DNA of 64,000 nt from Calothrix sp. PCC 7716 (lineage in GTDB: Bacteria; Cyanobacteriota; Cyanobacteriia; Cyanobacteriales; Nostocaceae), in contig NZ_AP025018.1 in assembly GCF_019977735.1 (NCBI RefSeq), forward strand, positions 10,172,580-10,236,579, in the 5' to 3' direction. Made by a program: the position numbers and the translations under genes. Under the pieces are notes generated by a model that was not told the DNA's origin, searched no databases, and saw only the letters and a list, made by a program, of their open reading frames with translations. Of the stretch, positions 742 through 52,685 are shown piece by piece (position 1 is the stretch's first letter; each line of letters opens with the position of its first letter).

Positions 742-756
742 ATTTACCGTATTATA
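742..756. promoter_or_regulatory. Putative operator, ATTTAC(M)GTA(K)TATA motif, site 1
   Basis: ATTTACCGTATTATA lies between the divergent TauD-like gene (start 623) and the methyltransferase (start 844). It is one of about 12 near-identical copies seen upstream of sulfur- or redox-related genes in this window. The core TAC-N-GTA is an odd palindrome. The regulator is unknown and the function is inferred from recurrence only. Confidence 0.5.
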
Positions 757-843
757 AAAAATAATATTTTTGATTAATGGAATAATAGGTTTACAGGCGC
801 CAACTTATACATACTATATACTTGAACTTAATAGTACATTATT

Positions 844-1713
844 ATGTCTGATTTATCTAAATCACAAAACCTATTGTCAAATGAAGCTGTAAAACATTAT
901 GAAGCTGGTGAAGAAGCTCAACGATTATTAAAAGGTACAAGTCGCTTAGAGTTTGAACGTACTAAAGAACTTCTTAGTCGCTATTTACCTCCTCCACCCG
1001 CAGTCATTTATGATGTTGGTGGAGGTTCAGGAGTTTATGCTTTCTGGCTTGCAGAACAGGGATATGAAGTTCATTTAATTGATGCAGTTCCTTTACATAT
1101 AGAACAAGCGCGCGTTGCTTCTAAATCTCAATCTGCTCAACTTGTGAATATCATAGTTGGGGATGCTCGTCAATTAAATCAAGTGTCTAATAGTGCTGAT
1201 GCTGTTCTTTTACTTGGCCCGTTATATCATTTAATAGAACGTAGTGACCGTGTAACTGCATTACGTGAAGCTCATCGTGTTTTAAAAAGCGAAGGTTTGA
1301 TTTTTGCTGCTGGAATTTCTCGCTTTGCCTCAACTTTAGATGGGTTATTTAGCGGGTATCTTGATGACCCAGATTTTGTAAAGATTGTACAACAGGATTT
1401 AATTGATGGACAACATCGCAACCCGAAAAACCATCCTGCTTACTTTACCACAGCATTTCTACATCAACCAGAAGAATTAAAGTCAGAGGTAGAAGACGCA
1501 GGTTTCTATACTGAAAATATTTTAGCTATCGAAGGAGCAGGTTGGTTATTACAAAACTTTGAGGAGCATTGGAGCAATCCAAGGTGCCGCTCTAGACTGT
1601 TAGAATCTATTCGTTGGGTAGAAAATGAACCTTCTATATTAGGTGTAAGCGCTCATATTTTGGCTGTTGGGAAAAAGGCGCCTGTTTTTAATTATGGCAC
1701 GCATAAAGAATAA
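844..1713 (+). CDS. Class I SAM-dependent methyltransferase
   Basis: 289 residues with a Rossmann methyltransferase core. Motif I is VIYDVGGGSGVYAFWLAEQG (about residues 54-73), followed by the acidic ribose-binding end of strand 2 (HLIDAVPLHI) and a post-motif II/III region (DAVLLLGPLYHLIERSDR). It belongs to the Methyltransf_11 type of soluble small-molecule methyltransferase; substrate is unknown. No good Shine-Dalgarno is visible before ATG 844. Its last ~35 nt are duplicated at 9714-9750 before the GNAT gene, suggesting methyltransferase and GNAT were once adjacent. The proximity to TauD and a shared putative operator make a link with organosulfur metabolism possible but unproven. Confidence 0.85.
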   Translation: MSDLSKSQNLLSNEAVKHYEAGEEAQRLLKGTSRLEFERTKELLSRYLPPPPAVIYDVGGGSGVYAFWLAEQGYEVHLIDAVPLHIEQARVASKSQSAQLVNIIVGDARQLNQVSNSADAVLLLGPLYHLIERSDRVTALREAHRVLKSEGLIFAAGISRFASTLDGLFSGYLDDPDFVKIVQQDLIDGQHRNPKNHPAYFTTAFLHQPEELKSEVEDAGFYTENILAIEGAGWLLQNFEEHWSNPRCRSRLLESIRWVENEPSILGVSAHILAVGKKAPVFNYGTHKE

Positions 1714-1736
1714 TATAATTGGCAGAATCTAATTCT
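1677..1736. repeat. Direct repeat copy 1: methyltransferase 3' end plus GNAT 5' scar
   Basis: The segment contains GGCGCC, the last codons of the methyltransferase and then about 25 nt matching the start of the GNAT gene at 9783 (AATTGGCAGAATCT). The second copy lies at 9714-9823, where the two blocks are separated by the GNAT promoter/start region (about 50 nt). Here that spacer is deleted and GNAT sequence stops after about 25 nt. The pair brackets an ~8-kb block. Confidence 0.8.
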
Positions 1737-1749
1737 CAAAAGTAAATTG

Positions 1750-1785
1750 TGTAGAGACAAGGGTTTAATCACGTCTCTACATTTT
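1750..1785. repeat. Interspersed palindromic repeat (GTAGAGAC...GTCTCTAC type)
   Basis: An imperfect inverted repeat with arms GTAGAGAC and GTCTCTAC, followed by a T-rich run. The same family occurs at 2891-2918, 33908-33935 (perfect 28-bp palindrome) and 60916-60953 inside a gene. It may also act as a transcription terminator after the methyltransferase. Confidence 0.75.
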
Positions 1786-1823
1786 TCCGAAGATATTTAT
1801 TATTCTCGTTTCGGTTGATAAAG

Positions 1824-11794: not shown

Positions 11795-12853
11795 TTACTT
11801 GCTAGAAATTTCTGAAGACTTGATATTTGCTGGAGTAATGGCAGTGTACTCTTCAGGAGAAAGAGCCTTCTCTTTAACCTTTATTGGCTTATTAATGATT
11901 TTCTGCTCATAAAATAAGTCCGCTATTTCCTGTTGCCCTGCAAGAATTTCATTCGTAATAGGTCTTAAGGTAGCACGGCGCCGTCTCACTATTTTTTCTA
12001 AAGTATCAAGGTCAAGCTTAACATCACGTGCAATAATTTCGGCAACTTCTCTAGGATTTGCGTCAGCCCATTTACCAGCATTGTTGACTTCTTCAAGAAT
12101 AGTTTTGATTAGTTCAGGATTGTCTTTAACAAAATCACGTTGAGCAATCCAGTAGCCTCCTTGAGTGGAAAGCCCTTTAGCGTTGCGGACAACACGAACT
12201 CCTAGCGTTCTTTGAAACTCAGCAAGCTGGGGGTCGCTAACCACGGCAGCATCAACACTACTATTTAATAGCGCTGCACGAGTTTCTGATGCGATAAGAT
12301 TTAAATGTTTGACATCACTAAGCTTGAGTCCAACTTCCTGCAAAGCTTTAACAACAAAGTACTGACTAGCTGTACCTCTTTGAAATGCGATATTTCGACC
12401 CTTAAGGTCAGCTGCAGTTTTAATCTGGGAGTCTTTTGGTACTACAATTGCCGTCCCTTCACCAGTTCCTGGTCTTGTACTAGCTATGAAAACAAAAGGA
12501 ATACCAGCAGCTTGGGCAAAGATGGGAGGAGTTTCACCTACCATGCCAACATCCAAACTTCCCACATTTACTGCCTCTAAAAGTTGTGGTCCAGCCGTAA
12601 ATTTCGACCACTCTAACTTAATACCTAATGGATTCAAACGTTTTTCTAAAACTCCTCTTGACCTCGTTATATCTGAGGCTGAAAAATAGCCTACTCTCAC
12701 CGCCTTAGCCTTAATGCCTTGAGAGGCAACAGCATTTTTCTCTGGTGTATTCGGAGCATTACAACCAGCTAAAGTTGTGGATAGAGCAACTACTCCAATC
12801 ACTAAGTAAGCTAAAAAATTTCTAGCGTGGCTTTTCCTAGATATTGCTACCAT
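11795..12853 (-). CDS. Sulfonate/taurine ABC transporter substrate-binding lipoprotein (SsuA-like)
   Basis: 352 residues with a lipoprotein signal (helix 13-28, lipobox LAGC, Cys31). The binding-protein fold is recognisable by VRVGYFSASDITRSRGVLEK, AGPQLLEAVNVGSLDVGMVG and ADLKGRNIAFQRGTASQYF (phosphate/sulfonate-loop region). It delivers aliphatic sulfonates or sulfate esters to an ABC transporter. No permease or ATPase gene is nearby, so it must use one encoded elsewhere or be an orphan. A copy of the ATTTAC(M)GTA motif is 229 bp upstream (13082-13096). Confidence 0.88.
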   Translation of the reverse strand: MVAISRKSHARNFLAYLVIGVVALSTTLAGCNAPNTPEKNAVASQGIKAKAVRVGYFSASDITRSRGVLEKRLNPLGIKLEWSKFTAGPQLLEAVNVGSLDVGMVGETPPIFAQAAGIPFVFIASTRPGTGEGTAIVVPKDSQIKTAADLKGRNIAFQRGTASQYFVVKALQEVGLKLSDVKHLNLIASETRAALLNSSVDAAVVSDPQLAEFQRTLGVRVVRNAKGLSTQGGYWIAQRDFVKDNPELIKTILEEVNNAGKWADANPREVAEIIARDVKLDLDTLEKIVRRRRATLRPITNEILAGQQEIADLFYEQKIINKPIKVKEKALSPEEYTAITPANIKSSEISSK

Positions 12854-13081
12854 GACATACCACCAATTATCTAATGTTTAATGTGGTTGAATACAAACTT
12901 CTTCCACCTTTCTAAGGGGAATCTAAGCGACAAGCATTGACCTGCTCCCAACATGATTGGCATTTCACTCGCCAATTTTGATTGAAAGTTGCAAGCAGTA
13001 ATATTTATGTACCTAATGTTAGCTGACTTTACACATCACGTCTAAACTTAAGCACAATTTTAAACTACGTTATCTCTATCT

Positions 13082-13096
13082 ATTTACCGTATTTTA
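13082..13096. promoter_or_regulatory. Putative operator, site 2
   Basis: ATTTACCGTATTTTA, 14/15 identical to site 1 at 742. It is upstream of the SsuA-like gene on the minus strand. Confidence 0.5.
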
Positions 13097-13339
13097 TATA
13101 CCTAGAAAGATTATCATATATTTTTTTAAGAATCAAGTGAAAGTTCGTAAAAAGCTTTAACTAGACTTACTGGCAACTAAAGTTACATGCATTAATAATA
13201 ACATTGAATATATTTTGATAAAACTCTCGTATATTCTACAAGCTATATCAAAGCGCTAAACTAATTTATACATGATTGCGCTTTTGAATTTATGGGGTTA
13301 AAGTTATAAATTTTGTTTAAAATTACATTATCTTGATAA

Positions 13340-13354
13340 ATATACAGTAGTATG
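13340..13354. promoter_or_regulatory. Putative operator, site 3
   Basis: ATATACAGTAGTATG, 90 bp before the RpiB-like start at 13444, which heads the AprA-like cluster. Confidence 0.45.
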
Positions 13355-13443: not shown

Positions 13444-13923
13444 ATGAAGATAGCTATTGGCAGTGACGAGCGCACGCATCTTACAGACAAAGTGATAGAG
13501 GAACTGAAAGCTAGGGGGCACCAAGTCCTGGCCTTTGGTTCTTTACTGGAAAATGAATCTGAAGTAGATTGGCCTCTTAGTTGTAGTAAAGCTGCTCTTG
13601 CCGTCGCAAACAATAAAGCGGATGAGGGTATTGTTTTTTGCTGGACTGGTACAGGCGCCTCTATTGCCGCTAATAAAGTTTCTGGGATACGCGCGGCTTT
13701 ATGTCACGATGCCGAAACTGCGAAGGGCGCCAGAATTTGGAACCATGCAAATGTTCTAGTGCTGAGTCTGCGCGCTACAACAGAAGCAGTCGCCAAAGAA
13801 ATATTAGATGCTTGGTTTGCAACGCCTTACTCCGACGATGAATGGAACCTTGAACAAATAGAACGTATAAAACAGTTAGAAAAAACCGTAATCAAGCAAA
13901 AGCAAAACGTGAGTGTAAGCTAA
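13444..13923 (+). CDS. RpiB/LacA/LacB-family sugar-phosphate isomerase-like protein
   Basis: 159 residues. The N-terminus MKIAIGSDERTHLTDKVIEE and the loop DEGIVFCWTGTGASIAANKVSGIRAA (with the cysteine base in FCWTGTG) match RpiB-type isomerases; HDAETAKGARIWNHANVLVL is the next conserved block. Normal RpiB converts ribose-5-P and ribulose-5-P. Being placed before an AprA-like flavoprotein, its role here may differ. The C-terminus has a short Lys/Gln-rich extension. No clear Shine-Dalgarno. Confidence 0.82.
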   Translation: MKIAIGSDERTHLTDKVIEELKARGHQVLAFGSLLENESEVDWPLSCSKAALAVANNKADEGIVFCWTGTGASIAANKVSGIRAALCHDAETAKGARIWNHANVLVLSLRATTEAVAKEILDAWFATPYSDDEWNLEQIERIKQLEKTVIKQKQNVSVS

Positions 13924-14040: not shown

Positions 14041-15741
14041 ATGAATACTCAACATATAAAAACAGATGTCCTAGTCATTGGTGGTGGAACAGCGGGGACA
14101 ATGGCAGGTATAAAAGCCAAGCAAGCCAACCCTGAAGGTGAAGTCTTAATTTTAGAAAAAGCAAACATTCGTCGTAGCGGTGCCATTGCAATGGGAATGG
14201 ATGGAGTCAACACAGCAGTCATTCCCGGACATTCCACTCCAGAACAGTACGTTCGCGAAGTTACTATTGCCAACGATGGGATTTTACATCAAAAAGCAGT
14301 TTATCAAACCGCTCTTTTAGGTTACGAAACAATTCAAGAATTAGAAAGTTGGGGCGTTAAATTCCAAAAAGATACTCAAGGAAATTATGATGTCAAGCAA
14401 GTGCATCGTGTCGGTAAATATGTATTGCCAATGCCAGAAGGAAAAGATTTAAAAACTATTCTTACTCGACAAGTAAAACGTCATAAAGTACGAGTAACTA
14501 ACCGAGTCATGGCGACACGGGTAATAGTAAAAGATGGTAGAGCAATTGGAGCAGTAGGTTTTGATGTGCGAGGTGGAGATTTTGTTGTTATCCAAGCCAA
14601 AGCGGTAATTCTCTGTACAGGCGCCTGCGGAAGATTAGGACTACCAGCATCTGGGTATCTTTACGGTACTTATGAAAATCCGACTAATGCGGGGGATGGT
14701 TACTCAATGGCGTATCATGCAGGCGCCGAGCTTACCAATATTGAATCATTTCAAATCAACCCACTAATTAAAGATTACAACGGTCCCGCCTGTGCGTATG
14801 TAGCAGGTCCTTTTGGCGCCTATACTGCAAACGCTGAAGGATACCGCTTTATTAATTGTGATTATTGGAGTGGTCAAATGATGCTAGAGATTTGGAAAGA
14901 GTTAAACTCTGGCAAGGGACCAATTCAATTAAAAATGACCCACTTAGATGAAGATACAATCTCCGAAATTGAATCTATTTTATGGTCAAATGAGCGACCA
15001 AGCCGAGGACGTTTTCACGAGGGTAGAGGTGAAGACTATCGCACTCACGGTATAGAAATGAACATTTCCGAGATTGGGTTATGTAGTGGACATAGTGCAT
15101 CTGGAGTCTGGGTGAATGAGAAAGCAGAAACAACAGTACCAGGATTATATGCAGCCGGAGACATGGCAAGCGTGCCTCATAATTATATGATTGGCGCCTT
15201 TGTATTCGGTCGTTTAGCGGGAATAAATGCAGTTGATTACATCCAGCACTTAGAACATTTAGAACCTGATACAGAATTTTTAGAAGCAGAGAAAGCTAGA
15301 ATTTACGAACCATTGAATCAACCTCATGGTATCCCTCATACTCAGATAGAGTATAAATTACGACGCTTAGTAAATGATTATTTACAACCGCCGAAATCAG
15401 GTTACAAAATGGAAATAGGGCTAAATCATTTTATTCGCTATCACGAAACATTAAAACAGATGGGCGCCCGCGATGCTCATGAATTAATGCGCTGTATGGA
15501 AGTGCATTTTATTCGCGACTGTGCAGAAATGGCCGCACGCGCGTCTTTATATCGTCGAGAAAGTCGTTGGGGATTATATCATTATCATTTAGATTATCCA
15601 CAAAAAAATAATCAAGAATGGTTTTGTCACGTAAACTTAAAGAAAAGCGAAGGAGAAATGGTACTCTTTAAACGCCCCGTAGAACCCTATGTCATAGAAG
15701 TAGATTTAGTAAAAGAAATTTATAACGTAACAACAAGATAA
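14041..15741 (+). CDS. AprA-like FAD flavoprotein (SdhA/FrdA/AprA superfamily)
   Basis: 566 residues. FAD-binding motifs are clear: VLVIGGGTAGTMAGIKAK (about 11-28) and VPGLYAAGDMASVPHNYMIG near residue 370. At the flavin site the sequence reads RRSGAIAMGMDGVNTAV. The covalent-FAD His of succinate dehydrogenases is absent and the pattern resembles adenylylsulfate reductase alpha. An AprB-like ferredoxin is encoded at 17131, so the two could form an electron-transfer pair acting on a sulfur compound. It is shorter than true AprA (usually over 600 residues). Substrate is unknown; sulfite/AMP is a hypothesis only. GGTGATAACAC precedes ATG 14041. Confidence 0.8.
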   Translation: MNTQHIKTDVLVIGGGTAGTMAGIKAKQANPEGEVLILEKANIRRSGAIAMGMDGVNTAVIPGHSTPEQYVREVTIANDGILHQKAVYQTALLGYETIQELESWGVKFQKDTQGNYDVKQVHRVGKYVLPMPEGKDLKTILTRQVKRHKVRVTNRVMATRVIVKDGRAIGAVGFDVRGGDFVVIQAKAVILCTGACGRLGLPASGYLYGTYENPTNAGDGYSMAYHAGAELTNIESFQINPLIKDYNGPACAYVAGPFGAYTANAEGYRFINCDYWSGQMMLEIWKELNSGKGPIQLKMTHLDEDTISEIESILWSNERPSRGRFHEGRGEDYRTHGIEMNISEIGLCSGHSASGVWVNEKAETTVPGLYAAGDMASVPHNYMIGAFVFGRLAGINAVDYIQHLEHLEPDTEFLEAEKARIYEPLNQPHGIPHTQIEYKLRRLVNDYLQPPKSGYKMEIGLNHFIRYHETLKQMGARDAHELMRCMEVHFIRDCAEMAARASLYRRESRWGLYHYHLDYPQKNNQEWFCHVNLKKSEGEMVLFKRPVEPYVIEVDLVKEIYNVTTR

Positions 15742-20800: not shown

Positions 20801-20852
20801 AGGCTAATTATAGAATCAAGCCCTAATTGCATAAAGTGCTTAAACTCTATCT

Positions 20853-20867
20853 ATATACAGTGGTATT
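20853..20867. promoter_or_regulatory. Putative operator, site 5
   Basis: ATATACAGTGGTATT, 82 bp before the TTG start of the ChrB-like gene. It is a weaker match than sites 1-4. Confidence 0.35.
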
Positions 20868-25749: not shown

Positions 25750-25884
25750 AGTTAGCGGAACGGGGATATGTAACTTTGGTAAAGCAATACAGTAAAGATT
25801 TGTTAAACAACAACAACAGCAATCGATTTTTTATATACCGTTAAATTATAAGCTTATACAAATAAAAATTTTATACGACGTAAA

Positions 25885-36478: not shown

Positions 36479-37762
36479 CTAGGTATATAGTGTGTACAAT
36501 TTTTTTATCTCAGGTAACTTCTTATAAAAATAAGTAGCACCTATAAGGCAACAAGCGCCACCAAAAAGTAAAGCATTGTTAACTCCAACTTTATCTGCCA
36601 GTCCACCAAAAAATAAATTGCCGAAAGGTAATATTCCTAAAAAACAAGTTGTAAATATACTTGTGACTCGACCTCGCTTATTTTCATCAGCAATAATTAA
36701 TTGTACAAAGTTACCAATTGCGGCAAGGGTGAGAGTATTAGTCATCCCAACAATGAAAATTAACACAATAGCAGTTTGTAAATCAGTTGAGCGAGAAAAA
36801 AGTATTAAACTTAAACCGAGAATAGTCGTAGAGCTTGCAATAATTTTTTCTAACCCCTTAGCTTTATTACGAAAGACTAAGTAAAGACCCGAAATTATTG
36901 AACCAAATGCTGAAGCAGTCATCAGAAAACCCATAGTTTCAGCATTACCATTTAATATATTATTGGCAAAAATTGGCATTAAATTTACATAAGTCATTGC
37001 CATAAAACAAATGGTAATTTGTAAAATCAAAACACATTTGATTGGTACAAAATTATATGCATAAACAAAACCTTCCTTTAAATTATTCCAAACTTGAGCT
37101 TTTTTTGCAACAGAATTATTAGGAATAGACTGAATTTTTACAGTTAAAATAGCAGAAATAAAAGGTAAATAACTAATGCTATCTACCAGAAAACACGAAC
37201 CTGCTCCACTTTTAGCAAGCAATATACCTCCAATCATCGGACTAATAAACTTAGCTGAATTAACCATGAACCAATGAATGGAAATTGCACTATAGGTATC
37301 TGTCTTGTTATCCACAAGTCTGGGAATTGTAACCAAACGCGCGGGTAAATCAAAAGCTTTTACTATTCCCTGAAGCATTCCAATCACAATAATCCATGTG
37401 AAAGTAATGTAACCATTAAGAGTCAGAAAAGTCAAAGTAGCAGATAGTACCATAGATACTAACTGAGTACTTAGCAGAACATACCGTAAATTCCAACGGT
37501 CGAGTAAGACTCCCACCAAAGGTGTAATAACCAAACCCATTGCTTGACTAGTGAATCCAGCTACACCAACTAATACAGCAGAATTAGTCAACTGATACAC
37601 CAACCATATCAGAGCGATTTGAGTCATCCAAGACCCAAAGAACGAAAAGCTCTCACCCATTACGAAACAACAAACGTTTAAAGATTTAACAGCAGGTGGT
37701 ATCTGCAAAAAACCGAACAGTTGTTTGCCTGCTTTTGTATTTTCTTGATTAGTACGATGCAT
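36479..37762 (-). CDS. MFS exporter (EntS-like)
   Basis: 427 residues, twelve helices. The start is ATG 37762. The N-terminus (FFGSWMTQIALIWLVYQLTN) and the loop LLDRWNLRYVLLSTQL are typical of the EntS/antibiotic exporter group. The fourth helix contains the GMLQGIVKAFDLPARLVTIP-type signature. It exports a siderophore, drug or metabolite; substrate unknown. ATTTAC-like motif F (ATCTACCGTAGTATA, 37928-37942) lies 166 bp upstream. Confidence 0.88.
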   Translation of the reverse strand: MHRTNQENTKAGKQLFGFLQIPPAVKSLNVCCFVMGESFSFFGSWMTQIALIWLVYQLTNSAVLVGVAGFTSQAMGLVITPLVGVLLDRWNLRYVLLSTQLVSMVLSATLTFLTLNGYITFTWIIVIGMLQGIVKAFDLPARLVTIPRLVDNKTDTYSAISIHWFMVNSAKFISPMIGGILLAKSGAGSCFLVDSISYLPFISAILTVKIQSIPNNSVAKKAQVWNNLKEGFVYAYNFVPIKCVLILQITICFMAMTYVNLMPIFANNILNGNAETMGFLMTASAFGSIISGLYLVFRNKAKGLEKIIASSTTILGLSLILFSRSTDLQTAIVLIFIVGMTNTLTLAAIGNFVQLIIADENKRGRVTSIFTTCFLGILPFGNLFFGGLADKVGVNNALLFGGACCLIGATYFYKKLPEIKKLYTLYT

Positions 37763-37927
37763 CCCTATCTTCCTTTAGATAGCTTAAGTACGCTTGTATC
37801 TCACTTTCAGAGGCTTTATTAGAAAAGCTTAAAGTTAGATAATCATAAATTTAGTATACTTAGTATATCTCAATATCTGTTATTGGCAGTAATTGCAGCT
37901 ATAGATAAAAATGCTAAAAATCAGTCA

Positions 37928-37942
37928 ATCTACCGTAGTATA
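37928..37942. promoter_or_regulatory. Putative operator, site 6
   Basis: ATCTACCGTAGTATA, upstream of the MFS exporter on the minus strand. Confidence 0.4.
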
Positions 37943-38118
37943 CTAAACTCTAGTATATTGACAAACATGTCATAGTGTGGGCTTTACAGATATATACTGC
38001 AAACGGGTAAAATCTGAACTTATGTCATGCTGAGGAACGAAGCATCTGATAGATTTTGATTTTATTTAAAAGTTTAGTTTTAACCCGTTCATAGTATAAA
38101 AAGTCTAAAAAGCAATTG

Positions 38119-38152
38119 GCTTACAGTAGTATGATATTGACACGGTGTATTT
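38119..38152. repeat. Direct repeat copy A (contains putative operator)
   Basis: TTACAGTAGTATGATATTGA followed by (C/A)ACGGTGTATT; matches 41329-41361 with one difference. The two copies bracket the ABC-2 permease remnant and its IS. The copy at 41329 is 50-80 bp before the monooxygenase start. Confidence 0.8.
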
Positions 38153-39422: not shown

Positions 39423-40528
39423 ATGGTGAATCGAACATTTAGGCTTGAAATAACTAATTTAGATTTAGATTTATGGCAGAAATTCTATTATAAGCATCAG
39501 CAAGAATATATTAGAAAAAGATTGTTAGCAATTAAATACTTATACTCCGGTCAAAGCAGAGCGGAAGTAACAAAGATATTAGATTGCACGTATAAAACAT
39601 TATCCAGATGGATAGATAAATTTTTAAATGGTGGATTGAATGAGTTAGTGAAGCCAATAGAACATCAAGTGAATGAAAAATTAAGTCAACAACAAAAACA
39701 AGAATTAAAAACAATAATTTTAACATCAACACCAATTAACTATGGCATAGATAGAAATCTTTGGACAGGTAAAATTATTGCTGAAATCTTGCGTGAACAA
39801 ATGGGAGTCGAACTAAAAATTAGTAGAATATATGAAATTTTAGATGAATTAAATCTGTCGCATCAAAAAGCCCATAGAGATTATGCGAATGCAGATAAAG
39901 ACCAGCAAAATATTTTTGTATCTAATTTAAAAAAAAACTTGAAGATAAAGAATAAAAAGAGAAAATAGTCTTTTTTGACGAATTTGCAGTTTACGAACGT
40001 CCAAGTATTTTTTATGGTTGGGCAGAAAGAAATACTCGCCCTCAAGTACCAAGTAATGAAAAAGGACGAAGAAATAAATTGAATGGGATGCTTTGTGCAG
40101 ACGCATTAACAGGAGAAGAATACTTTCAATTAAAATTTAAATCAAAAACTGAAGATGTTTCCGAATATTTCGCATCGCTTGCGAGCGATTGTGTTCAAAA
40201 TGAATATGAAAAGCTAAGTATAATTTTAGATAATAATTCTACACATAAAATCAAAATGCAGCTTCAATTACAAGCTCATTTAACTAATTTAAATATTCAA
40301 GATAAAATTATTGTAGAATTCATTTATACTCCCCCTTACTCACCAAATTTTAATTTAGTTGAATACTTGATTCACCTTTTACGACTTAAGTTTTTACATC
40401 ATCTACCTCTTGGTGCTAACATACAACAAATTCAAGAAAAACTCGAAAATTATTTTCAATATAATCAGCTTCAAACACCACATCAAATTCAAAATATCCT
40501 TAATCATATTTGTAATTTAGTTCAATAG
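39423..40528 (+). CDS. IS630-family transposase, split by a -1 frameshift
   Basis: ORF A (39423-39968, 181 aa) has the N-terminal HTH domain: LAIKYLYSGQSRAEVTKILD CTYKTLSRWIDKFL. The DDE part continues in the -1 frame from about 39960 (VFFDEFAVYERPSIFYGWAE) to 40528, where the usual annotation starts only at 40079. Catalytic residues: Asp in FFDEFA, Asp in IILDNNSTHK and Glu in SPNFNLVEYL. AAAAAG just before the ORF A stop is a possible slippery site. Thus one protein, made by frameshifting, or a recently broken gene. Confidence 0.8.
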
Positions 40529-41063: not shown

Positions 41064-41320
41064 AATTGCAAAGCGTTACCACAAATAGCATGAGCAATTC
41101 CAAATCCTGCTGATGTCATTGCCCAAAGTGTAATAACATCTTTTATATTCCAACCGCGTAGTATGGGAAAGCGCGTGAAAAACAATGCCCAAAAAGCTAC
41201 CCAAACTAAGTTATTCAAAATCATTGCAAATACTTGAGTAATAAACGCTCCACGATATTCTAAGTGCGCTTTGAAATTAAGGCGAATGTATATAAATGTT
41301 GAAATAAAATACTATAAAGC
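41064..41320 (-). pseudogene. ABC-2-type permease, 5' part (split by IS630)
   Basis: From about 41318 the minus strand reads FISTFIYIRLNFKAHLEYRG AF, then MILNNLVWVAFWALFFTRFP and LWAMTSAGFGIAHAICGNAL, the N-terminal helices of the permease. Upstream of 41318 the frame closes with TAG and no start codon is seen, so the 5' end is also lost. The right-hand copy of the direct repeat begins 8 bp away, suggesting the gene fragment was cut and pasted with it. Confidence 0.78.
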
Positions 41321-41326
41321 TATCGA

Positions 41327-41361
41327 CTTACAGTAGTATGATATTGAAACGGTGTATTGGC
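41327..41361. repeat. Direct repeat copy B with putative operator
   Basis: ACTTACAGTAGTATG (41327-41341) and the following bases match 38119-38152. It sits 50-80 bp before the monooxygenase start at 41410, so it likely holds its control region. Confidence 0.75.
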
Positions 41362-41409
41362 GCCCGCACGTCAACTGCACTTATATCACTCTTTAACCCC
41401 AGAAACACA

Positions 41410-42777
41410 ATGAGTCAGAAGCAACTAAAACTAGGTGCATTTTTACCAGGTAACGGACATCACGTAGCAGCATGGCGCCATCCAAATGCCCAAGCGAATG
41501 GAGGTATAAATTTCCTGCATTACCAAAATATTGCACAGACAGCAGAGCGGGGAAAATTTGACATGGTTTTCCTAGCAGATAATGTAGCTGTATGGGGTTG
41601 GGGTAAAGGTACTGAAGATTTAACACGTTCGGGTCAGATTATCCACTTTGAACCTTTGACTTTATTGTCTGCTTTATCTGTGGTTACAGAGCATATTGGT
41701 TTAGCGGCTACAGCATCAACCACTTATAACGAACCTTATCACCTCGCGCGTAAGTTCGCTTCATTAGACCATTTGAGTAGTGGTCGCGCGGGTTGGAATC
41801 TTGTAACCTCAGCAACCGAAGCTGAAGCAAAAAACTTTTCTCGTGATAAGCACATGGAGCATATGCTGCGTTATGAGCGTGCCAAAGAATTTGTAGATGT
41901 CGTGACATCGCTATGGGATAGTTGGGAAGATGATGCTTTTGTGCGAGATAAAGAGTCTGGAGTTTACTTCGACTCAGACAAATTGCACGTTCCCAACCAT
42001 AAAGGTGAGCATTTTTCAGTCAAAGGTCCCCTCAACGTCGCGCGTCCACCCCAAGGTTATCCCGTTATTATCCAAGCAGGTTCATCTCTTGATGGTAAAA
42101 ATTTAGCCGCGCAAACAGCAGAGGTAATATTCACCGCACAGCAAACTTTGGCAGAAGCTCAAGCATTTTATATCGATGTAAAGCAAAGAGTCGCAAAATA
42201 TGGACGCAACCCTAATGATGTCAAAATAATGCCAGGGGTGTTTCCAGTAATTGGTAGCACCGAGCAAGAAGCATTAGAAAAATACGAGCAACTACAGGAA
42301 TTAATTCATCCAAGCGTTGGTTTAGCTTTACTTTCTGGTTTAGTAGGTGGTATTGATTTATCTAAGTATCCATTAGACGAACCATTACCAGACTTACCAG
42401 AAACTAACCTTCATAAAAGTCGCTTACAGTTACTAACCGACCTTGCCCACAGAGAAAAATTAACTATTCGGCAACTCTATTTACGCATAGCAGGCGCCCG
42501 TGGACATCGTACCATTATCGGAACACCCGAACAGATTGCCGATAAATTAGAAGAGTGGTTTATTAATAGTGGCGCCGATGGGTACAATATCATGCCACCT
42601 TATTTACCAGATGGGTTAAACGAATTTGTAGACTTAGTAATTCCAGAACTACAACGTCGAGGACTATTCCGCACCGAGTACGAAGGAAAAACCTTACGAG
42701 AAAATCTCGGTCTACCACGTCCAACAAATAAATTTACTAAAGTCAAAAAGGTAGAATTAGTTGGCGCCTTAATTTAA
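41410..42777 (+). CDS. FMN-dependent LLM-class monooxygenase (NtaA/SnaA/DszA/SfnG group)
   Basis: 455 residues from ATG 41410 (frame open from 41338). Signature regions: LGAFLPGNGHHVAAWRHPNA near the N-terminus, KFDMVFLADNVAVWG, HLARKFASLDHLSSGRAGWN LVTS and PVIIQAGSSLDGKNLAAQTA. This group uses reduced FMN from a separate reductase to attack sulfonates, sulfones or aminopolycarboxylates. A candidate reductase is the FMN reductase at 54171. Next to sulfur genes, organosulfur desulfonation is likely but substrate is not established. A motif copy precedes it. Confidence 0.88.
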   Translation: MSQKQLKLGAFLPGNGHHVAAWRHPNAQANGGINFLHYQNIAQTAERGKFDMVFLADNVAVWGWGKGTEDLTRSGQIIHFEPLTLLSALSVVTEHIGLAATASTTYNEPYHLARKFASLDHLSSGRAGWNLVTSATEAEAKNFSRDKHMEHMLRYERAKEFVDVVTSLWDSWEDDAFVRDKESGVYFDSDKLHVPNHKGEHFSVKGPLNVARPPQGYPVIIQAGSSLDGKNLAAQTAEVIFTAQQTLAEAQAFYIDVKQRVAKYGRNPNDVKIMPGVFPVIGSTEQEALEKYEQLQELIHPSVGLALLSGLVGGIDLSKYPLDEPLPDLPETNLHKSRLQLLTDLAHREKLTIRQLYLRIAGARGHRTIIGTPEQIADKLEEWFINSGADGYNIMPPYLPDGLNEFVDLVIPELQRRGLFRTEYEGKTLRENLGLPRPTNKFTKVKKVELVGALI

Positions 42778-43043: not shown

Positions 43044-44729
43044 CCAGGGGAAACGCATCTAAAAAATGTTAAGGGATATTGACAAAATTCGATATTAATG
43101 TATTAAAAATGATTTGAGTTTATTTGGGCTATCAAAGTAAATCATTTTAGTAATTCAATGCTTTTGTATGTAAGCTATCTTCAAAATGTATTATTTTTAC
43201 TATTGTCTTATTTATCACAATACATATATTTTTTGACTAGTATATTTTTGGTTGACAGAAGTGTCAATTAGTGAGTTTATCTCAAAATTGGTAATTATTT
43301 GTGCAATTTACACCTAGTGATGGTATTTTAAATTTTAACAAAACACTGAAAATTAAAATTTACAGATGAAGCTAAAACCAAAAATTACTATCGCAGACCA
43401 CTTTGACTTAATTGAAGATCCAAGAATTGAACGGACAAAATTACATGATTTAAATGATATTATCACCATCGCAATTTGTGCTGTAATCTGTGGTGCAGAT
43501 ACATGGGTTGATATTCAAGAATATGGAAAATCAAAACAAAAATGGCTAAAAAAAATTCTAAAGTTATCTAATGGTATACCTTCACATGATACTTTCTCTC
43601 GTGTATTTGCACGTATAAACCCAGAACAATTTCAAAGCAGTTTTATAAATTGGATTCAGTCAATTAGTAATTTAACTGAGGGAGAAATTGTTGCAGTTGA
43701 TGGTAAAGCACTACGTCATTCATATGATAAAAGTAAGGATAAAGCTGCTATTCATATGATTAGCGCATGGGCTACAAATGCGCGATTAGTTTTAGGCCAA
43801 TTAAAAGTTAATGATAAATCAAATGAAATAACAGCAATTCCTGAATTGATTAAGCTATTATCTTTGAAAGGCTGTATTGTTTCTATCGACGCAATCGGTT
43901 GCCAAAAAACCATTGTTAAACAAATTGTAGAGCAAGAAGCTGATTATATTATTGCTCTTAAAAAGAATCAAAAAAACTTGTATAATGAAGTAGAAGCTAT
44001 ATTTAGAAATGCAGTTATTTCTAAATACAAAGGATATAAACATACCGAATATCGTTTAGTTGATGAAAGCCACGGGCGTACAGTCACTAGATATTACAGT
44101 GTACTAAATAATGTTGGGCATCTAGTAGACCCAAAAAACGAATGGGCTAATTTAAATAGTATTGGCAAAGTTGATACTTTGAGGATTGCAAATGGTAAAA
44201 TAAAATTAGAAAGTCGTTACTATATTTTAAGTGTAAACCGTAATGCAGAATTTTTTGGCAATTCAATACGTAGTCATTGGCAAATAGAAAATTGCTTACA
44301 TTGGGTATTGGATGTTCAGTTCCATGAAGACGATTCTAGAATTCGTAAAGATAATGCTCCGGCTAACTTTGCCGTTTTAAGACATATTGCCCATAGCCTT
44401 TTAACCCAGGAAAAGTCTTTGAATACAGGAGTAAGCAATAAGCGAAAAAAAGCTGGCTGGGATGATAAATATTTATTGAATGTGTTGACTATCTAATTTT
44501 ATCTTAAGTTTTATAAAAATTTTTATTATACATAAAATACGTAAGTGTATTTGCACTTACGACTTTTTGGGCTGCGAGTTTTAGTGGAAACACTTGCATT
44601 TTTGAAAATTATTATTGAAATTTATATCACATTTTTTTATTTGACAATAACAAGAGCAAATTACTCTTTTTTATTGTTTGAAACGCTTATTTAGCTTAGA
44701 TTGTGACTATTAAGATGCGTTTCCCCTGG
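43044..44729 (+). mobile_element. ISAs1-family insertion sequence
   Basis: About 1.69 kb bounded by inverted ends CCAGGGGAAACGCATCT (43044-43060) and its complement (44713-44729). It contains one transposase (43366-44496). No clear target duplication is visible at the borders (left TCTAA, right AACCAG), so the flanks may have been rearranged after insertion. The left part (43061-43365) and right part (44497-44712) contain no further genes. No GGCGCC inside. Confidence 0.82.
43366..44496 (+). CDS. ISAs1-family transposase
   Basis: 376 residues, full length for the family. The N-terminus IADHFDLIEDPRIERTKLHD and a core with ISAs1 signatures: GEIVAVDGKALRHSYDKSKD, DAIGCQKTIVKQIVEQEADYI and SHWQIENCLHWVLDVQFHED. 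The DDE-type catalytic residues are Asp in AVDGK, Asp in SIDAIG and Glu in WQIENC. Probably active. No frameshift. Confidence 0.92.
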   Translation: MKLKPKITIADHFDLIEDPRIERTKLHDLNDIITIAICAVICGADTWVDIQEYGKSKQKWLKKILKLSNGIPSHDTFSRVFARINPEQFQSSFINWIQSISNLTEGEIVAVDGKALRHSYDKSKDKAAIHMISAWATNARLVLGQLKVNDKSNEITAIPELIKLLSLKGCIVSIDAIGCQKTIVKQIVEQEADYIIALKKNQKNLYNEVEAIFRNAVISKYKGYKHTEYRLVDESHGRTVTRYYSVLNNVGHLVDPKNEWANLNSIGKVDTLRIANGKIKLESRYYILSVNRNAEFFGNSIRSHWQIENCLHWVLDVQFHEDDSRIRKDNAPANFAVLRHIAHSLLTQEKSLNTGVSNKRKKAGWDDKYLLNVLTI

Positions 44730-47584: not shown

Positions 47585-48028
47585 TTACGAATTTTGTTTT
47601 TCATTCTGCTTATCGAGCAAGAATTGCTTTAAATGTGGCTGGTCTAAACTGATACCAACCTCCTTAGCTTTTTGCGTTATTTCCTCATAACTCAACCCTT
47701 CTTCAATTGCAGCAGCAATCAAAGCGATTCCACCAGCCCTGGCGCCTCCTCCACAATGAATTAAAATAGGTTTAGGTAAATTCTCGACTTGCTCAATTGC
47801 TTGTTTCGTCAATTCTTCGTCAGCTTGTTTTGGTTGCAGTGGGACATTCGCATATTCTAATCCTAATTTTTCCGCTTGCTGCTGTTCGTCACTAAAAAAG
47901 CCCTCTTCATTACTATCGCGCAAATTCAGAACCGATTTAAATCCTTCGGACGCTAACTGTTGTAACTCTTCTTTTGTCACTTGCCCAGCTACACTCAAAT
48001 TATCGCTAACTTTTTTTGTGTTTGACAT
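47585..48028 (-). CDS. DUF442-type (Blh/tyrosine-phosphatase-like) protein
   Basis: 147 residues. N-terminal half KVSDNLSVAGQVTKEELQQL ASEGFKSVLNLR is typical for DUF442, and a phosphatase-like P-loop IHCGGGARAGGIALIA (HC-x5-R) is present. DUF442 proteins are found fused to or near persulfide-dioxygenase-type MBL enzymes and rhodaneses, which fits with the MBL gene at 49767. An operator-like motif (48029-48043) abuts the start codon. Confidence 0.82.
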   Translation of the reverse strand: MSNTKKVSDNLSVAGQVTKEELQQLASEGFKSVLNLRDSNEEGFFSDEQQQAEKLGLEYANVPLQPKQADEELTKQAIEQVENLPKPILIHCGGGARAGGIALIAAAIEEGLSYEEITQKAKEVGISLDQPHLKQFLLDKQNEKQNS

Positions 48029-48043
48029 AATAATACAGTAACT
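48029..48043. promoter_or_regulatory. Putative operator, site next to DUF442 start
   Basis: Minus strand reads AGTTACTGTATTATT, 12-13 of 15 matching the consensus. It ends 1 bp from ATG 48028. Confidence 0.3.
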
Positions 48044-48094
48044 CGATAAATATATTGTAATTATCCTACAGAAGGATAGAATTAGCGTTTGGTA

Positions 48095-48766
48095 TTAATT
48101 GACCGAAATAGGAGCAGCAGTTGCAAATCGCCCGTATCGTTCAATGTAAAACTCTTTGGGATTTGCGATTTTCTTTACAGACTCCCGTTGACTTACCGTA
48201 TCTTTCCATCTGTGAAGACGAGTTAGTTTTGATGGTAAAGAAAAACCGCGATGATGCTCAAGTGCAGGTAATCTCTCAAACCAAGGATAAAAACTTAGGT
48301 CAACTAGACTGATATTCTCACCAAACCAATAAGCACCATCACCTGATTTTCCTAAAGCCTCATTCTCAATAAATTCCAAGTGCTTATATAATGAGTCTGT
48401 AGCTTCTGATTGTTTTTGAGGGTCTGGGGAACGCAAAACATCCGAAAAAGCTGGAACTAATCTAGTATTAGCAAAATCAATCCAAATTCTTGCTAACGCT
48501 TTATCAATCGGATTACTTGGTAATAATGGCGGGTTAGGAAATACTTCATCTAAATATTCATTTATAATTGCAGATTCCCAAACACGATTACCATCATGTG
48601 TAATCGCAGGCACTTTTCCGTAAGGAGAAATATCAGTAAATCCCGGTGGCTTGTTCTGCAAGTCAATCTCGATTAAATCAAATTCCACGCCCTTCTCTAA
48701 CAATACCAAACGTGAGCGATGAGCATAAGGACAAACTACTGCACTATAGATTTTTATATTAGCCAT
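48095..48766 (-). CDS. Glutathione S-transferase family protein (omega-like)
   Basis: 223 residues. Thioredoxin-like N-terminal domain with the active-site region VVCPYAHRSRLVLLEKGVEF (CPYA, cysteine-type as in omega/glutaredoxin-like GSTs) and cis-Pro loop GKVPAIT, then the helical C-terminal domain (DKALARIWIDFANTRLV). Probably a thiol transferase or dehydroascorbate reductase-type enzyme. Motif site H (48820-48834) is 54 bp upstream of the start. Confidence 0.88.
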   Translation of the reverse strand: MANIKIYSAVVCPYAHRSRLVLLEKGVEFDLIEIDLQNKPPGFTDISPYGKVPAITHDGNRVWESAIINEYLDEVFPNPPLLPSNPIDKALARIWIDFANTRLVPAFSDVLRSPDPQKQSEATDSLYKHLEFIENEALGKSGDGAYWFGENISLVDLSFYPWFERLPALEHHRGFSLPSKLTRLHRWKDTVSQRESVKKIANPKEFYIERYGRFATAAPISVN

Positions 48767-48819: not shown

Positions 48820-48834
48820 TATACTACAGTAAAT
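48820..48834. promoter_or_regulatory. Putative operator, GST/nitroreductase region
   Basis: Reads ATTTACTGTAGTATA on the minus strand, 13/15 identical to the consensus. It lies between the divergent GST (48766) and nitroreductase (48909) genes. Confidence 0.45.
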
Positions 48835-48908
48835 CGCTAGAATAACCGTAGTTAAGATAATTTTCAGTTTATTATAAATTGGTAAATCATACAAGTAAGT
48901 TTAGTCTT

Positions 48909-49730
48909 ATGTCTTATCCTGCTGAATTAATACACGCGCGTTATGGAGAAATTCCATTCAATGTAGATGTTGAGTGGAACAATACACTAGATACTTTACT
49001 ATCTCATCGCTCAGTACGCAAGTATCAAACTAAGCCCTTACCATCTAGAACATTAGAATTACTTGTTGCGTCCGCCCAATCTGCCGCAACTTCCTCAAAT
49101 CTTCAAACGTGGAGCGTGGTAGCGGTAGAAAATCAAGAGCGTAAAGAAGAACTAGCTACTCTTGCAGGAAACCAAGCACATATTCGCCAATGTCCACTAT
49201 TCTTAGTATGGCTAGCTGATTTAGCACGTCTTGCTCACATCGCCGAAAGTCGCGGTATATCTTACGACGGTTTAGATTATTTGGAAATGTTTATAATGGC
49301 AACGATTGATGCAGCTTTGGCAGCACAAAATGCCGTAATAGCTGCTGAGTCATTAGGTTTGGGTACTGTTTATATCGGCGCCATGCGTAACAAACCTCTT
49401 GAAGTCGCCGACGTATTACAATTACCTCCATCTGTGTTTGCCGTATTTGGCTTATGCGTAGGATATCCAGAACCAGATATTGCAACAGCGGCCAAACCCA
49501 GATTACCACAATCAGCAATTTTGCATCGTGAAACATATAAACTAGCAGAACAAGACGAAGCAATCGCGCGTTACAATCAAGTAATGAAAGATTTTTATAC
49601 GCAGCAACAAATGAATGTTCCTGGTGATTGGTCAGAACATTCAGTCAAGCGAATTGCAACTCCACAATCTTTGTCAGGACGCGATAAGCTACGTGAAGCG
49701 TTAAATCACCTTGGCTTTAAATTAAAGTAA
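48909..49730 (+). CDS. NADPH-dependent nitro/flavin oxidoreductase (NfsA/FRP type)
   Basis: 273 residues from ATG 48909; the frame is open from TTG 48879. Nitroreductase fold: LLSHRSVRKYQTKPLPSRTL (FMN binding), ASAQSAATSSNLQTWSVVAV and GTVYIGAMRNKPLEVADVLQ. These enzymes reduce flavins or nitro-compounds with NADPH. It might supply reduced FMN for the LLM monooxygenase. Starts opposite to the GST, sharing a motif site. Confidence 0.88.
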   Translation: MSYPAELIHARYGEIPFNVDVEWNNTLDTLLSHRSVRKYQTKPLPSRTLELLVASAQSAATSSNLQTWSVVAVENQERKEELATLAGNQAHIRQCPLFLVWLADLARLAHIAESRGISYDGLDYLEMFIMATIDAALAAQNAVIAAESLGLGTVYIGAMRNKPLEVADVLQLPPSVFAVFGLCVGYPEPDIATAAKPRLPQSAILHRETYKLAEQDEAIARYNQVMKDFYTQQQMNVPGDWSEHSVKRIATPQSLSGRDKLREALNHLGFKLK

Positions 49731-50456: not shown

Positions 50457-50473
50457 CTTACTGTCTCCTATTG

Positions 50474-51838
50474 TTATTTTAATAATTCTTCTGCAAGCTC
50501 TTGTGCTTGTTTTCTCAGTTCGGGTACTGCTATCGTTTCCCATTTTTGACCAATCTCAGGTGGGCCAAGAGTATACAGTTGCTCTGATATATTTCCTGCT
50601 GCATCTATAACGGCGCCATTTGCAGCAACATCCAAGCCTAAATTCACCTCATGTGGACGAATTAATCCCGACTCGAGTAGTTGCTGAACCAAAGGATGTT
50701 CTATTCGACGATAGTTAGATTGTGGGCCTGTACAGTTAACTACAAGTCCGACTCGTAAAGTTTCTTCGCCACTACCTCGCTTACGAATCACAACATTTAC
50801 ACCATCAGCATCTTCTTGATAAGCCTGAATTCTTGCAGCATAAGAAATAATCTGCCGATTTTGAGTCAGTTCAGTCAAAACTTGTGCTACAGTTGGCGCC
50901 ACTCGGTGACGGTGAACATCCCAATAAATTCTCACGTGTCTTAAAAAACGCCGCTTTTCCTTTAGGGATAGATTTTGCCAGAGTGCTTGAGTTTCTGAGC
51001 GAAGAGCATCAATGACCGGGCGCCAGTCAATCGAACGTGAAGCAGCTAATTTAACTTCAGTACGCACATCACGAACTAAAGCACGGATGGTTTGCGGAGA
51101 TTCTGCTTTCAAAAAAGAATGGTAAGGAGATGTAGCTTTATGAACTTGAGGTTGTAAACCTCGACGGGAAACAATATGAATTTTGCCCTTGTGTCCTTGT
51201 TGATGCAGCGACAAAACTACATCTAAACCCGTTAAACCAGAACCAATTAAAAGTACTGACTCATCAACAGGTAATTTCTCTAACCAATTTTTAGACCATA
51301 CCCATTGAACGTAACGTTTGCTCTCATAAAAAGTGGAGTCATTTACAGGTGGATTTCCACTTTTAAAATTACCTAATGCTAAAACCGCGCGGTCACACTC
51401 AATAATCTCGCCACTTTTAGTACTAATATTTACATTATTTCCCACATTCAGAGAAATTACTTCAGCTCGATAACGTTCTAACTTTACCCAAGCAGGAGCA
51501 TTCAAGAGCGCTTCATTTAAAACAGCTTGAATGTATTGACCATATATTTGGCGAGGTACAAAAGTCGTAGCATCAATCTCAGAAAATCCTTGATTGTGTA
51601 GCCAGTGTAAAAAATGCTCAGAGTTGTCGGCAAAAGCACTCATGTTACTAGCAGGAACATTCAACAAATGGCATTTTTTATCTGTTCCATATGCCACTCC
51701 TTGTCCTATCACTTCTTGACTATCTATTAATTTAATTACAAGTGGACGAGTAGCATTTAACAGTAAGTGTACTGCTACCATCACCCCACTGAAACCACCA
51801 CCAATAACTGCAATAACTAGCGATTTATGATTAGACAT
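50474..51838 (-). CDS. FAD/NAD(P)-binding protein (NAD_binding_9 type)
   Basis: 454 residues. N-terminal VIAVIGGGFSGVMVAVHLLL is the FAD-binding motif, with a second Rossmann segment ESVLLIGSGLTGLDVVLSLH about residue 195. Predicted amine/oxygenase-like oxidoreductase with unknown substrate; it may be linked with sulfide oxidation because it precedes the persulfide dioxygenase. A motif copy (51938-51952) lies 100 bp upstream. Confidence 0.8.
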   Translation of the reverse strand: MSNHKSLVIAVIGGGFSGVMVAVHLLLNATRPLVIKLIDSQEVIGQGVAYGTDKKCHLLNVPASNMSAFADNSEHFLHWLHNQGFSEIDATTFVPRQIYGQYIQAVLNEALLNAPAWVKLERYRAEVISLNVGNNVNISTKSGEIIECDRAVLALGNFKSGNPPVNDSTFYESKRYVQWVWSKNWLEKLPVDESVLLIGSGLTGLDVVLSLHQQGHKGKIHIVSRRGLQPQVHKATSPYHSFLKAESPQTIRALVRDVRTEVKLAASRSIDWRPVIDALRSETQALWQNLSLKEKRRFLRHVRIYWDVHRHRVAPTVAQVLTELTQNRQIISYAARIQAYQEDADGVNVVIRKRGSGEETLRVGLVVNCTGPQSNYRRIEHPLVQQLLESGLIRPHEVNLGLDVAANGAVIDAAGNISEQLYTLGPPEIGQKWETIAVPELRKQAQELAEELLK

Positions 51839-52685
51839 TACTATGACAACTAGCTAATATTATCTATGTAATTTCCCCCAACAAAAAATATCATTGGGAG
51901 TTCAGCAATCAAGTATCAAAATACGTTAAATTGATACACCTACAGTATTTTACAACTAATTTTAGAAAAACTTAGTTAAATTAGATACCAGTTTTTAACA
52001 TATGAAAGTATGTAATGCTGCAATTTAAATTCTCGACAAAAGAAACCACAGAAACCAGGTTTCTAGTGTATAGTTAAGGTTAGATTAAAAATAATTTAAC
52101 CAAAAATTAATCTATGCACTGGTACATAAATAGTGTTTATTGTTACCTTTAATAGATAGATTCTAAAACTAGCCTTTTTCCAAATTATAGAAAAGCTTGA
52201 TATATAAGCATTAGATAATATAATTAAGCAAATGTACTATTAATCGATAAACTTTTGGGTGTTTTTTTTTTAACAACTACTTGTTTTGAATAGCAGTATG
52301 TGTCATAATCTAATTTTAATAGTATAATACGGTATATGGATTGATTTACAGTATTATAGAAGCAGGTGATGCGATTCTTGATTGCAAAGCTTGTTTTGAG
52401 GGGTTACATAAACCTGATGTTTTGGTAGCTTGTTAAGCAGTACTTATTTACTACGCATTTTTACTGAGATAATATTTTGCTTTTCTAGTAAGATTTAAAT
52501 TTTATCACTTCTACTTTGTAGGCGCCTGTTTATTTAGCGTTGAATGGAATTTTGTTTTTATAGATAAAAATAAATATAATCATAAGTATATATTTTCTTT
52601 AAAATTAATTTAAACTACTCATTATCGATAAAGGTAAAGTAATATAGTAAGGTACTGCTCGTACCAAAAAGTGAAGTAAAACCCT
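51839..52685. other. 847-bp divergent AT-rich region between FAD gene and cysK
   Basis: It contains three motif copies: 51938-51952 (ACCTACAGTATTTTA), 52323-52337 (ATATACCGTATTATA, minus strand) and 52344-52358 (ATTTACAGTATTATA). It also holds a GAAACCAGGTTTC repeat (52045-52062) and one GGCGCC (52519). No ORF of interest; likely a large regulatory region. Confidence 0.6.
52323..52358. promoter_or_regulatory. Divergent pair of putative operators before cysK
   Basis: Two inverted 15-mers separated by 6 bp: ATATACCGTATTATA on the minus strand and ATTTACAGTATTATA on the plus strand. This paired arrangement is the strongest candidate for a dimer- or tetramer-binding site. It lies 328 bp before the cysK start. 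Confidence 0.55.

Follow-up and report, generated by a model that had tools for sequence, protein, structure and literature searches.

A conserved 36-bp palindrome as the probable operator of a sulfur-starvation regulon in Calothrix sp. PCC 7716

Introduction

In a stretch of 64,000 nucleotides from the cyanobacterium Calothrix sp. PCC 7716 (contig NZ_AP025018.1, here C1, positions 10172580-10236579 of a 12.37-Mb genome; the whole stretch is hereafter called the window), a sequence-only reading had pointed to a 15-bp motif recurring in front of dispersed sulfur and redox genes, and had proposed that it marks a putative undescribed regulon. Is this motif an operator, which genes would it control and which protein would bind it? 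We describe below a 36-bp palindrome which, judging from its architecture, placement and conservation, is very probably a genuine, conserved sulfur-starvation operator with a regulon of its own. Two candidate regulators are weighed: a CysR-like protein of the CRP family, named CRP-S (P0002 is the copy of this genome, C1:10718170-10718733, and P0004 that of cyanobacterium PCC 7702), and a CymR-like protein of the Rrf2 family, named Rrf2-R (P0010 in this genome, P0011 in Nostoc).

Results

The sequence-only reading had taken TAC-N-GTA as the unit. Its 13 listed copies are all present, with only the one given as 41327 off by one (41326), and most of them stand as operators, but the unit is a 36-bp palindrome, of which the 15-bp motif forms one arm and in which a second, inverted core lies exactly 19 bp away. 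The copies at 52323 and 52344, which had been seen as a separate pair, form a single operator of which each is an arm, and the copy at 38119 is a weak site within a 53-bp copy of the 41305 region. The operators define an island of 153 kb, from C1:10071727 to 10225211, which extends well to the left of the window.

The second arm was assessed on those island 15-mer matches which had at most two mismatches and an exact TACnGTA (n=25). C was present at position -17 in 23 of these, and a second core (at least four of six letters) lay exactly 19 bp upstream in 21; the mean number of core letters matched was 4.5 at 19 bp, against 0.84 at 18 bp and 1.12 at 20 bp. Five like matches lay in the flanks outside the island, of which one had C at -17 and none a second core. 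As a control for spacing, a two-armed pattern with 18 bp between cores gave 67 matches versus 70 for its own control, with none in the island. A 36-bp matrix was then built from 24 seeds (the island matches 10080547 and 10117178, which have no second arm, were dropped by eye and 20853 was added), with leave-one-out scores from 15.8 to 42.1; the seed sites are little conserved beyond the 36 bp. Scoring both arms with this matrix identified 37 operators in 179 kb, all in the island. All 37 share C at -11, G at +11 and T at +12, although matrix picking itself favours both arms, and the test on the 25 island 15-mers is for this reason less biased. The inner triplets read GTA-N12-TAC, the most constant pair being C(-11)/G(+11), and nearly perfect palindromes are found at C1:10088277-10088312 and at window positions 52323-52358. 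The single 15-mer was rejected as the unit, as it gave 80 matches genome-wide with at most one mismatch, versus 68 for the reversed control. With up to three mismatches it had 78 matches in the window against 61 expected, a count reached by two of 100 shuffles; counts this little above shuffles or reversed control make the loose 15-mer weak evidence when taken by itself.

Thirteen of the 37 island operators lie in the window, including the weak site at 38098 and the newly found one at 52611; the regulon is nearly three times the size of the window view (37 operators in 153 kb, with a few more elsewhere). A matrix scan of 463 kb gave two matches beyond the island at a score of at least 10 (14.4 and 10.1), where a Markov model over the whole 463 kb expects 3.6 at score 10 and 0.6 at 14. 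Among the 72 genome-wide 15-mer matches outside the window, six lie in the 101-kb part of the island to its left, where about 0.6 would be expected by length (0.8% of 12.37 Mb), which makes this evidence of clustering independent of the window. The best genome-wide pattern matches fall in the island in 27 of 33 cases, a count which is not an independent test since the pattern was made from island sites. Further copies lie beyond the island at about C1:7973658, 7976083, 7989328 and 10718081 and at C2:50412. The locus at C1:7976083 holds an Rrf2 gene, that at C2:50412 a LysR gene, and that at C1:10718081 a divergent Rrf2/CRP-S pair adjoining cysT/cysW/sbpA-like genes (named by eye).

The placement of the two-armed sites was that of control elements. 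Within the island, one of the 37 centres lies inside an open reading frame (ORF) of at least 90 amino acids, although such ORFs cover 81% of it, which bears out the expectation that the sites lie upstream of genes rather than inside them. For the 30 operators with a single close target, the centre is 15-353 bp from the start of the gene, and within 200 bp in 26.

Relatives carry the same element. A 30-bp pattern with at most two mismatches matched in 39 of 60 relatives and in 136 of 147 family genomes (own genome counted), while its reversed control gave 0-3 matches per strand; four or more matches were found in 98 of the 147, a match alone being not yet a regulon, and G035 has 29. In 112 loci of relatives, chosen for operators or for CRP-S, we compared the 343 neighbour proteins in reach of an operator with the island. 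Of these, 58 matched CRP-S and 11 the sbpA-like protein; there were four matches each to the TauD-like, monooxygenase-like, GST-like, SsuA-like and rhodanese-like proteins, two to cysK, one to the Met-free cpcB described below and fewer to others, while 203 matched no island protein, in part because both sides of every operator were counted. In locus L296, too, two operators lie no more than 400 bp from the cysK-like counterpart, one of them common to CRP-S. The prediction that the site would precede matching genes in relatives thus holds.

The island encodes sulfate, sulfonate, taurine, arylsulfate and cysteine-synthesis functions together with a phycocyanin without internal methionine (Met), and both the placement of the operator and this gene content support the earlier claim that it stands before functionally related sulfur genes. 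Beyond the window, where gene names were given by eye from sequence and not by database search, the island holds parts of a sulfate ABC transporter, sulfonate-type binding proteins, permeases and ATPases, as well as TauD-like, rhodanese-like, arylsulfatase-like, acyl-CoA-dehydrogenase-like and outer-membrane-receptor-like genes, GST, groES and phycocyanin subunits. In mechanically called ORFs encoding at least 150 amino acids, the median content of cysteine (Cys) plus Met was 1.46% for direct targets, defined by an operator within 250 bp of the start (n=33); it was 2.61% in ORFs beyond the island (n=190; p=1e-5) and 1.88% over the whole island (n=118).

The phycocyanin pair sits behind two operators, 10077863 and 10078082. 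Its CpcB has two Cys and no internal Met, and its CpcA one Cys and no internal Met, so that the pair keeps only its chromophore Cys. Operators precede the Met-free cpcB in four of five genomes (G000, G002, G005 and G015), at loci that were chosen around operators and are not a random sample. G002 and G005 have two each, at closely similar distances (-58 and about -295), and G015 one at -314; the CpcB of G005 has three Cys. A groES-like gene (C1:10144343-10144744), with a groEL-like gene behind it by eye, is also under a clear operator (46.5), which would link the chaperonin to the sulfur regulon.

The operators of the window and their targets are listed below, with the both-arm score; target names are from family searches unless stated.

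721-756, plus strand: operator 1, score 60.0, centre 67 bp upstream of the TauD-like gene and 105 bp upstream of the ORF at 844-1713
671 and leftwards, minus strand: TauD-like gene, named by eye
844-1713, plus strand: methyltransferase-like ORF
13061-13096, plus strand: operator 2, score 69.4, 225 bp upstream of 11795-12853
11795-12853, minus strand: SsuA-family sulfonate binding protein, target of operator 2
13319-13354, plus strand: operator 3, score 50.2, 107 bp upstream of the RpiB-family gene
13444-13923: RpiB-family gene, followed at 14041-15741 by a fumarate-reductase/AprA-like flavoprotein, both behind operator 3
20743-20778, minus strand: operator 4, score 45.0, overlapping the 5' end of 20375-20800 and 188 bp upstream of the ORF at 20949
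20375-20800, minus strand: TauE fragment ORF, containing the sole operator centre found inside an ORF
20832-20867, plus strand: operator 5, score 36.3, 99 bp upstream of the ORF at 20949-21896, which had no NCBIfam match and owes its ChrB-like label to the sequence-only reading
37907-37942, plus strand: operator 6, score 47.8, 162 bp upstream of an MFS-type transporter (36479-37762, minus strand)
38098-38133, plus strand: weak operator-like site, score 29.2, within a 53-bp partial copy of the 41305 region
41305-41340, plus strand: operator 7, score 67.4, upstream of 41338-42777
41338-42777, plus strand: NtaA/DmoA-family FMN-dependent monooxygenase, target of operator 7, its true start probably further in
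48029-48064, minus strand: operator 8, score 47.8, 18 bp upstream of a BLH-phosphatase-like gene (47585-48028, minus strand)
48820-48855, minus strand: operator 9, score 56.2, between divergent GST (48095-48766, minus strand) and nitroreductase (48879-49730, plus strand) genes
51917-51952, plus strand: operator 10, score 60.6, 96 bp upstream of an FAD/NAD(P)-binding gene (50474-51838, minus strand)
52323-52358, no strand assigned: operator 11, score 79.5, a nearly perfect palindrome, 345 bp upstream of the cysK-like gene
52611-52646, plus strand: operator 12, score 34.6, newly found, 57 bp upstream of the cysK-like gene
52686-53648, plus strand: cysteine-synthase-like gene (PALP), target of operators 11 and 12

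The TauD assignment at 742 holds for the gene to the left, on the minus strand, and not for the plus-strand gene at 844, which is methyltransferase-like. Window positions 38099-38151 are a 53-bp, 87% identical copy of 41306-41358, the promoter region of the monooxygenase with its operator; no matching gene was seen behind this copy, which is likely a leftover of a duplication. Mobile elements also occur in the window. A transposon-like block at 25885-32369 (tyrosine-recombinase-like ORF, zinc-ribbon protein and DnaB-like helicase) appears by eye to split one dienelactone-hydrolase-like gene (25466-25795 / 32492-33016), and beside regulon genes stand an ISAs1 transposase (43366-44496, by family match) and a DDE transposase pair (39423-40528), apparently broken by eye.

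Which protein binds the operator? CRP-S is our first candidate; its orthologs come from Nostoc, Calothrix, Scytonema, Fischerella and other cyanobacteria, and Trichormus variabilis ATCC 29413 also has it. At a combined score of at least 20, an operator lies 22-79 bp upstream of CRP-S in 66 of 80 named orthologs (47 of 80 at a score of at least 30), while that score was reached in 4.3% of 1472 random stretches from the same loci; the matrix was trained on the island of this genome only, and many of the 80 are close relatives. In a tree whose bootstrap is not settled, the operator precedes the gene in 19 of 29 members of the CRP-S clade versus 1 of 41 in the sister clade. In G050, the sole operator match of the genome is upstream of CRP-S. 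The 20-kb stretches around CRP-S in genomes without detected Rrf2-R were also read: five of these (L417 and L419-L422) have an operator before CRP-S, and two of the five also before an sbpA-like gene. CRP-S is put first mainly because operators precede it in five of the six such genomes read, and sbpA in two. Crp-type helix-turn-helix domains (PF13545 and PF00325) score above cut-off in P0002 and P0004, which fall below the cut-offs for NtcA and PtrA, and the recognition helix reads RVTxTR, as is also seen in NtcA. A different set of CRP proteins, the N-clade with P0001 of this genome and its relatives, was rejected as the self-regulated factor, the operator being found in 1 of 41, weak and 266 bp away.

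Several observations weigh against this account. As regards the operator, the stronger arm faces the gene in just 14 of the 30 single-target cases, the distances to gene starts are incompatible with one fixed promoter position, some targets have no obvious role in sulfur metabolism (groES-like, RpiB), and the Met-free cpcB of G009 has no operator. As regards CRP-S, 14 of the 80 named genes have no operator at the combined score threshold, and neither has that of G066 (L418, no Rrf2-R), despite 15 matches in that genome. Operators are present while CRP-S went undetected in G008, G030 and G033, and also in G156 (one contig, 12 matches), where a diverged copy could be missed; G091, counted as negative, in fact has CRP-S at 51.7% identity. 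A CRP/FNR site is a dyad of about 22 bp with half-sites about 11 bp apart, a geometry which the operator misses (GTA-N12-TAC; most constant pair at -11/+11). The number of operator matches also tracks Rrf2-R more closely than CRP-S across family genomes. The misfit in spacing, the operator-bearing genomes without CRP-S and the closer tie to Rrf2-R are the main reasons why we place the proposal that CRP-S is a direct, self-regulating binder, which comes from sequence comparison, just short of an even chance.

In a first alternative, which that closer tie favours, the regulon is the same but Rrf2-R, as a CymR-like repressor, would sit on the promoters when cysteine is plentiful, with CRP-S as only a target; release would come when sulfur is short, possibly with CysK as a sensor partner as in Bacillus. 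In the parts of the sources consulted, B. subtilis CymR works with CysK (PMC9338935, PMC2869319), and solved Rrf2 complexes hold 23, 29 and 39 bp of DNA, so a site of this length could be accommodated. Of the 91 Rrf2 proteins found, 65 were placed in a tree, near-copies from named Nostoc loci being left out; two of its clades have an operator upstream in all 8 and in 17 of 18 rows, most often near -54, -129 or -146; in the clade holding a universal paralog the figure is 2 of 35, and one row each from G055 and G056, outside the two clades, also has the operator. By eye, the order in L249 (Nostoc flagelliforme) is cysK, Rrf2-R, operator, cysE, CRP-S, NIL-like, cysW/T and sbpA. The best NCBIfam equivalog of Rrf2-R is CymR (NF047409), whose cut-off of 195 was not reached (110.1, 93.2 and 101.8 bits for P0010, P0011 and P0012), while that of the Rrf2 superfamily TIGR00738 (73.3) was passed (115.4, 111.1 and 111.8 bits). 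With a -10-like TAKTAT in an arm, the operator would be centred near a putative -24, a repressor-like position which speaks for Rrf2.

Counts of strand matches in the 147 family genomes had a median of 15.5 with both regulators (n=90), 3 with CRP-S only (n=13), 6.5 with Rrf2-R only (n=4) and 1 where neither was found (n=40), medians which ignore the relatedness of the genomes. Rrf2-R was assigned here at E of at most 1e-55 with P0011, plus eight genomes by hand (G000, G002, G004, G005, G006, G015, G028 and G121) because the score failed to separate Rrf2-R of the own genus from the universal Rrf2; G001 and G003 exceed the CRP-S threshold and were counted negative, their only match being an L216-type copy. 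Rrf2-R went undetected in 13 family genomes which bear CRP-S, five of them with at least four matches, and in G039, G046, G050 and G057, where either the pattern or the matrix shows operators. We regard it as rather unlikely that Rrf2-R is the direct binder. In-frame stops interrupt two Rrf2 copies (G020:C1:1048833-1049246 and G092:C343:3365-3646), and each of the two genomes has only two operator matches, as would follow from a joint decay of regulator and sites.

The universal Rrf2 paralog has a promoter box of its own, distinct and conserved in loci L323-L357 and typically CAAACCCCAGTGGAGAACCGGAGTATAC. The half CCGG[AG]GT is found in 24 of 27 such boxes, the right half resembles the operator half, and in G057 (L353) a box half reads ACCGTAGTATA, as in the operator. 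That a half of this box (AACCGGAGTATA) is close to the operator half (TTACCGTAGTATA) favours an Rrf2 protein as the binder, although by eye the spacing of the box is much shorter than that of the operator.

A third possibility, which we consider unlikely, is that another protein binds the operator (a LysR-type regulator of the P0013 family, a MarR protein, a small ribbon-helix-helix protein or an unrecognised regulator), CRP-S, Rrf2-R and LysR being just targets. Clear operators occur in G008 and G033, where no CRP-S, assigned Rrf2-R or P0013-type LysR was found, and each half, TACnGTA, forms by itself a short palindrome lying in a single groove, the kind of site that ribbon-helix-helix dimers would probably prefer. 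The LysR gene has an operator in front in some genomes, but at a combined score of at least 20 this is so in only 9 of 29 orthologs, and a search at E up to 1e-70 gave no P0013-type LysR in operator-bearing G030, G039, G046 and G050, on which grounds LysR was rejected as the sole explanation. Finally, that the element is no operator but a mobile or structural repeat (REP/MITE-like) spread in the island, as the many copies in one region and the 53 bp shared by the 38098/41305 pair might suggest, is largely refuted and most improbable, given little conservation beyond the 36 bp, copies outside genes and near starts, and the same site before matching genes in other genera.

Discussion

We propose that the operator would control a sulfate/cysteine-limitation regulon of 30-odd island genes, which would take up and split organic sulfur compounds (sulfonates, taurine and arylsulfates) and install proteins needing little Met and Cys, including the phycocyanin without internal Met. 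The regulator would most likely be encoded in the sulfate-uptake locus which carries the same operator; CRP-S would bind directly and regulate itself, with the divergent CymR-like Rrf2 protein as runner-up or partner. The promoters would be off when sulfur is plentiful and on when it is short, the genes of the regulators included.

In this genome the genes of CRP-S and Rrf2-R lie back to back, and each is under an operator of this kind. The two proteins might jointly read the 36-bp nested palindrome as a composite site, a reading to which we give a low probability. If true, it would make a two-input switch responding to sulfate/cysteine status plus a second signal, through which the whole sulfur-scavenging and sulfur-sparing proteome, Met-free phycocyanin included, would be switched.

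The 36-bp operator was not found described in the open-access literature searched, a scope outside which most subscription journals fall, nor was it seen in the parts consulted of PMC8049743, PMC9338935, PMC2869319, PMC4424289 and PMC12016511; the same partly seen literature gave no DNA control site for sulfur-poor antenna proteins or for cyanobacterial sulfonate use. To this extent the earlier description of the regulon as undescribed is upheld. The operator predicts members of the regulon gene by gene and names two candidate regulators, and it suggests that sulfur is spared by a whole regulon and not by one protein alone.

Comparison with known systems

Among the closest known systems is CysR of Synechococcus elongatus PCC 7942, likewise a CRP/FNR-family regulator of cyanobacterial sulfate-transport genes. 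The cysR gene presumably lies between cysA and cysT, an order shared by P0001, which in the island is flanked by cysA-like and cysT-like genes, while CRP-S adjoins cysT/cysW/sbpA-like genes by eye; the likeness of CRP-S to CysR is by family and neighbourhood only, and the name CysR was not visible among the 120 listed of 706 homologs. According to the part of the source consulted, CysR controls sulfate assimilation in S. elongatus and bears on phycobilisome breakdown (PMC12016511). No CysR operator was found in the literature searched, as far as its texts were seen, and the word "motif" is absent from the main text of PMC12016511; in any case, the spacing of the 36-bp site departs from that of a simple CRP site.

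NtcA shares a near-identical recognition helix with CRP-S, and GTA/TAC triplets occur in both sites. The NtcA site is GTA-N8-TAC, in contrast to GTA-N12-TAC here, and NtcA serves nitrogen control.

The CymR-CysK regulon of Bacillus and Staphylococcus, headed by an Rrf2-family protein, likewise controls cysteine supply, CymR acting in a complex with CysK which O-acetylserine releases, and Rrf2-R adjoins a cysK-like gene in L249 and G156 (L413), a likeness in gene neighbourhood only. Unlike CymR, Rrf2-R falls below the CymR cut-off, and organism, operator and gene content differ. In proteobacteria, the sulfonate regulons of CysB/Cbl and SsuR are governed by LysR-type activators; there, as proposed here, ssu, tau and sulfate uptake genes are switched on together by sulfur limitation, but those sites differ, and in the present case a LysR gene is no more than a frequent target.

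Since 1989 it has been known that sulfate starvation brings antenna proteins from which Met and Cys have been stripped (cited in PMC4424289), and Tolypothrix sp. PCC 7601 (Calothrix/Fremyella) is reported, in the part of that source consulted, to make antenna proteins with few sulfur amino acids when sulfate is low (PMC4424289). A control site for these Tolypothrix genes was not found described in the open-access literature searched, as far as its texts were seen. The phycocyanin pair of the island, without internal Met, resembles this low-sulfate antenna and has two operators in front of it.

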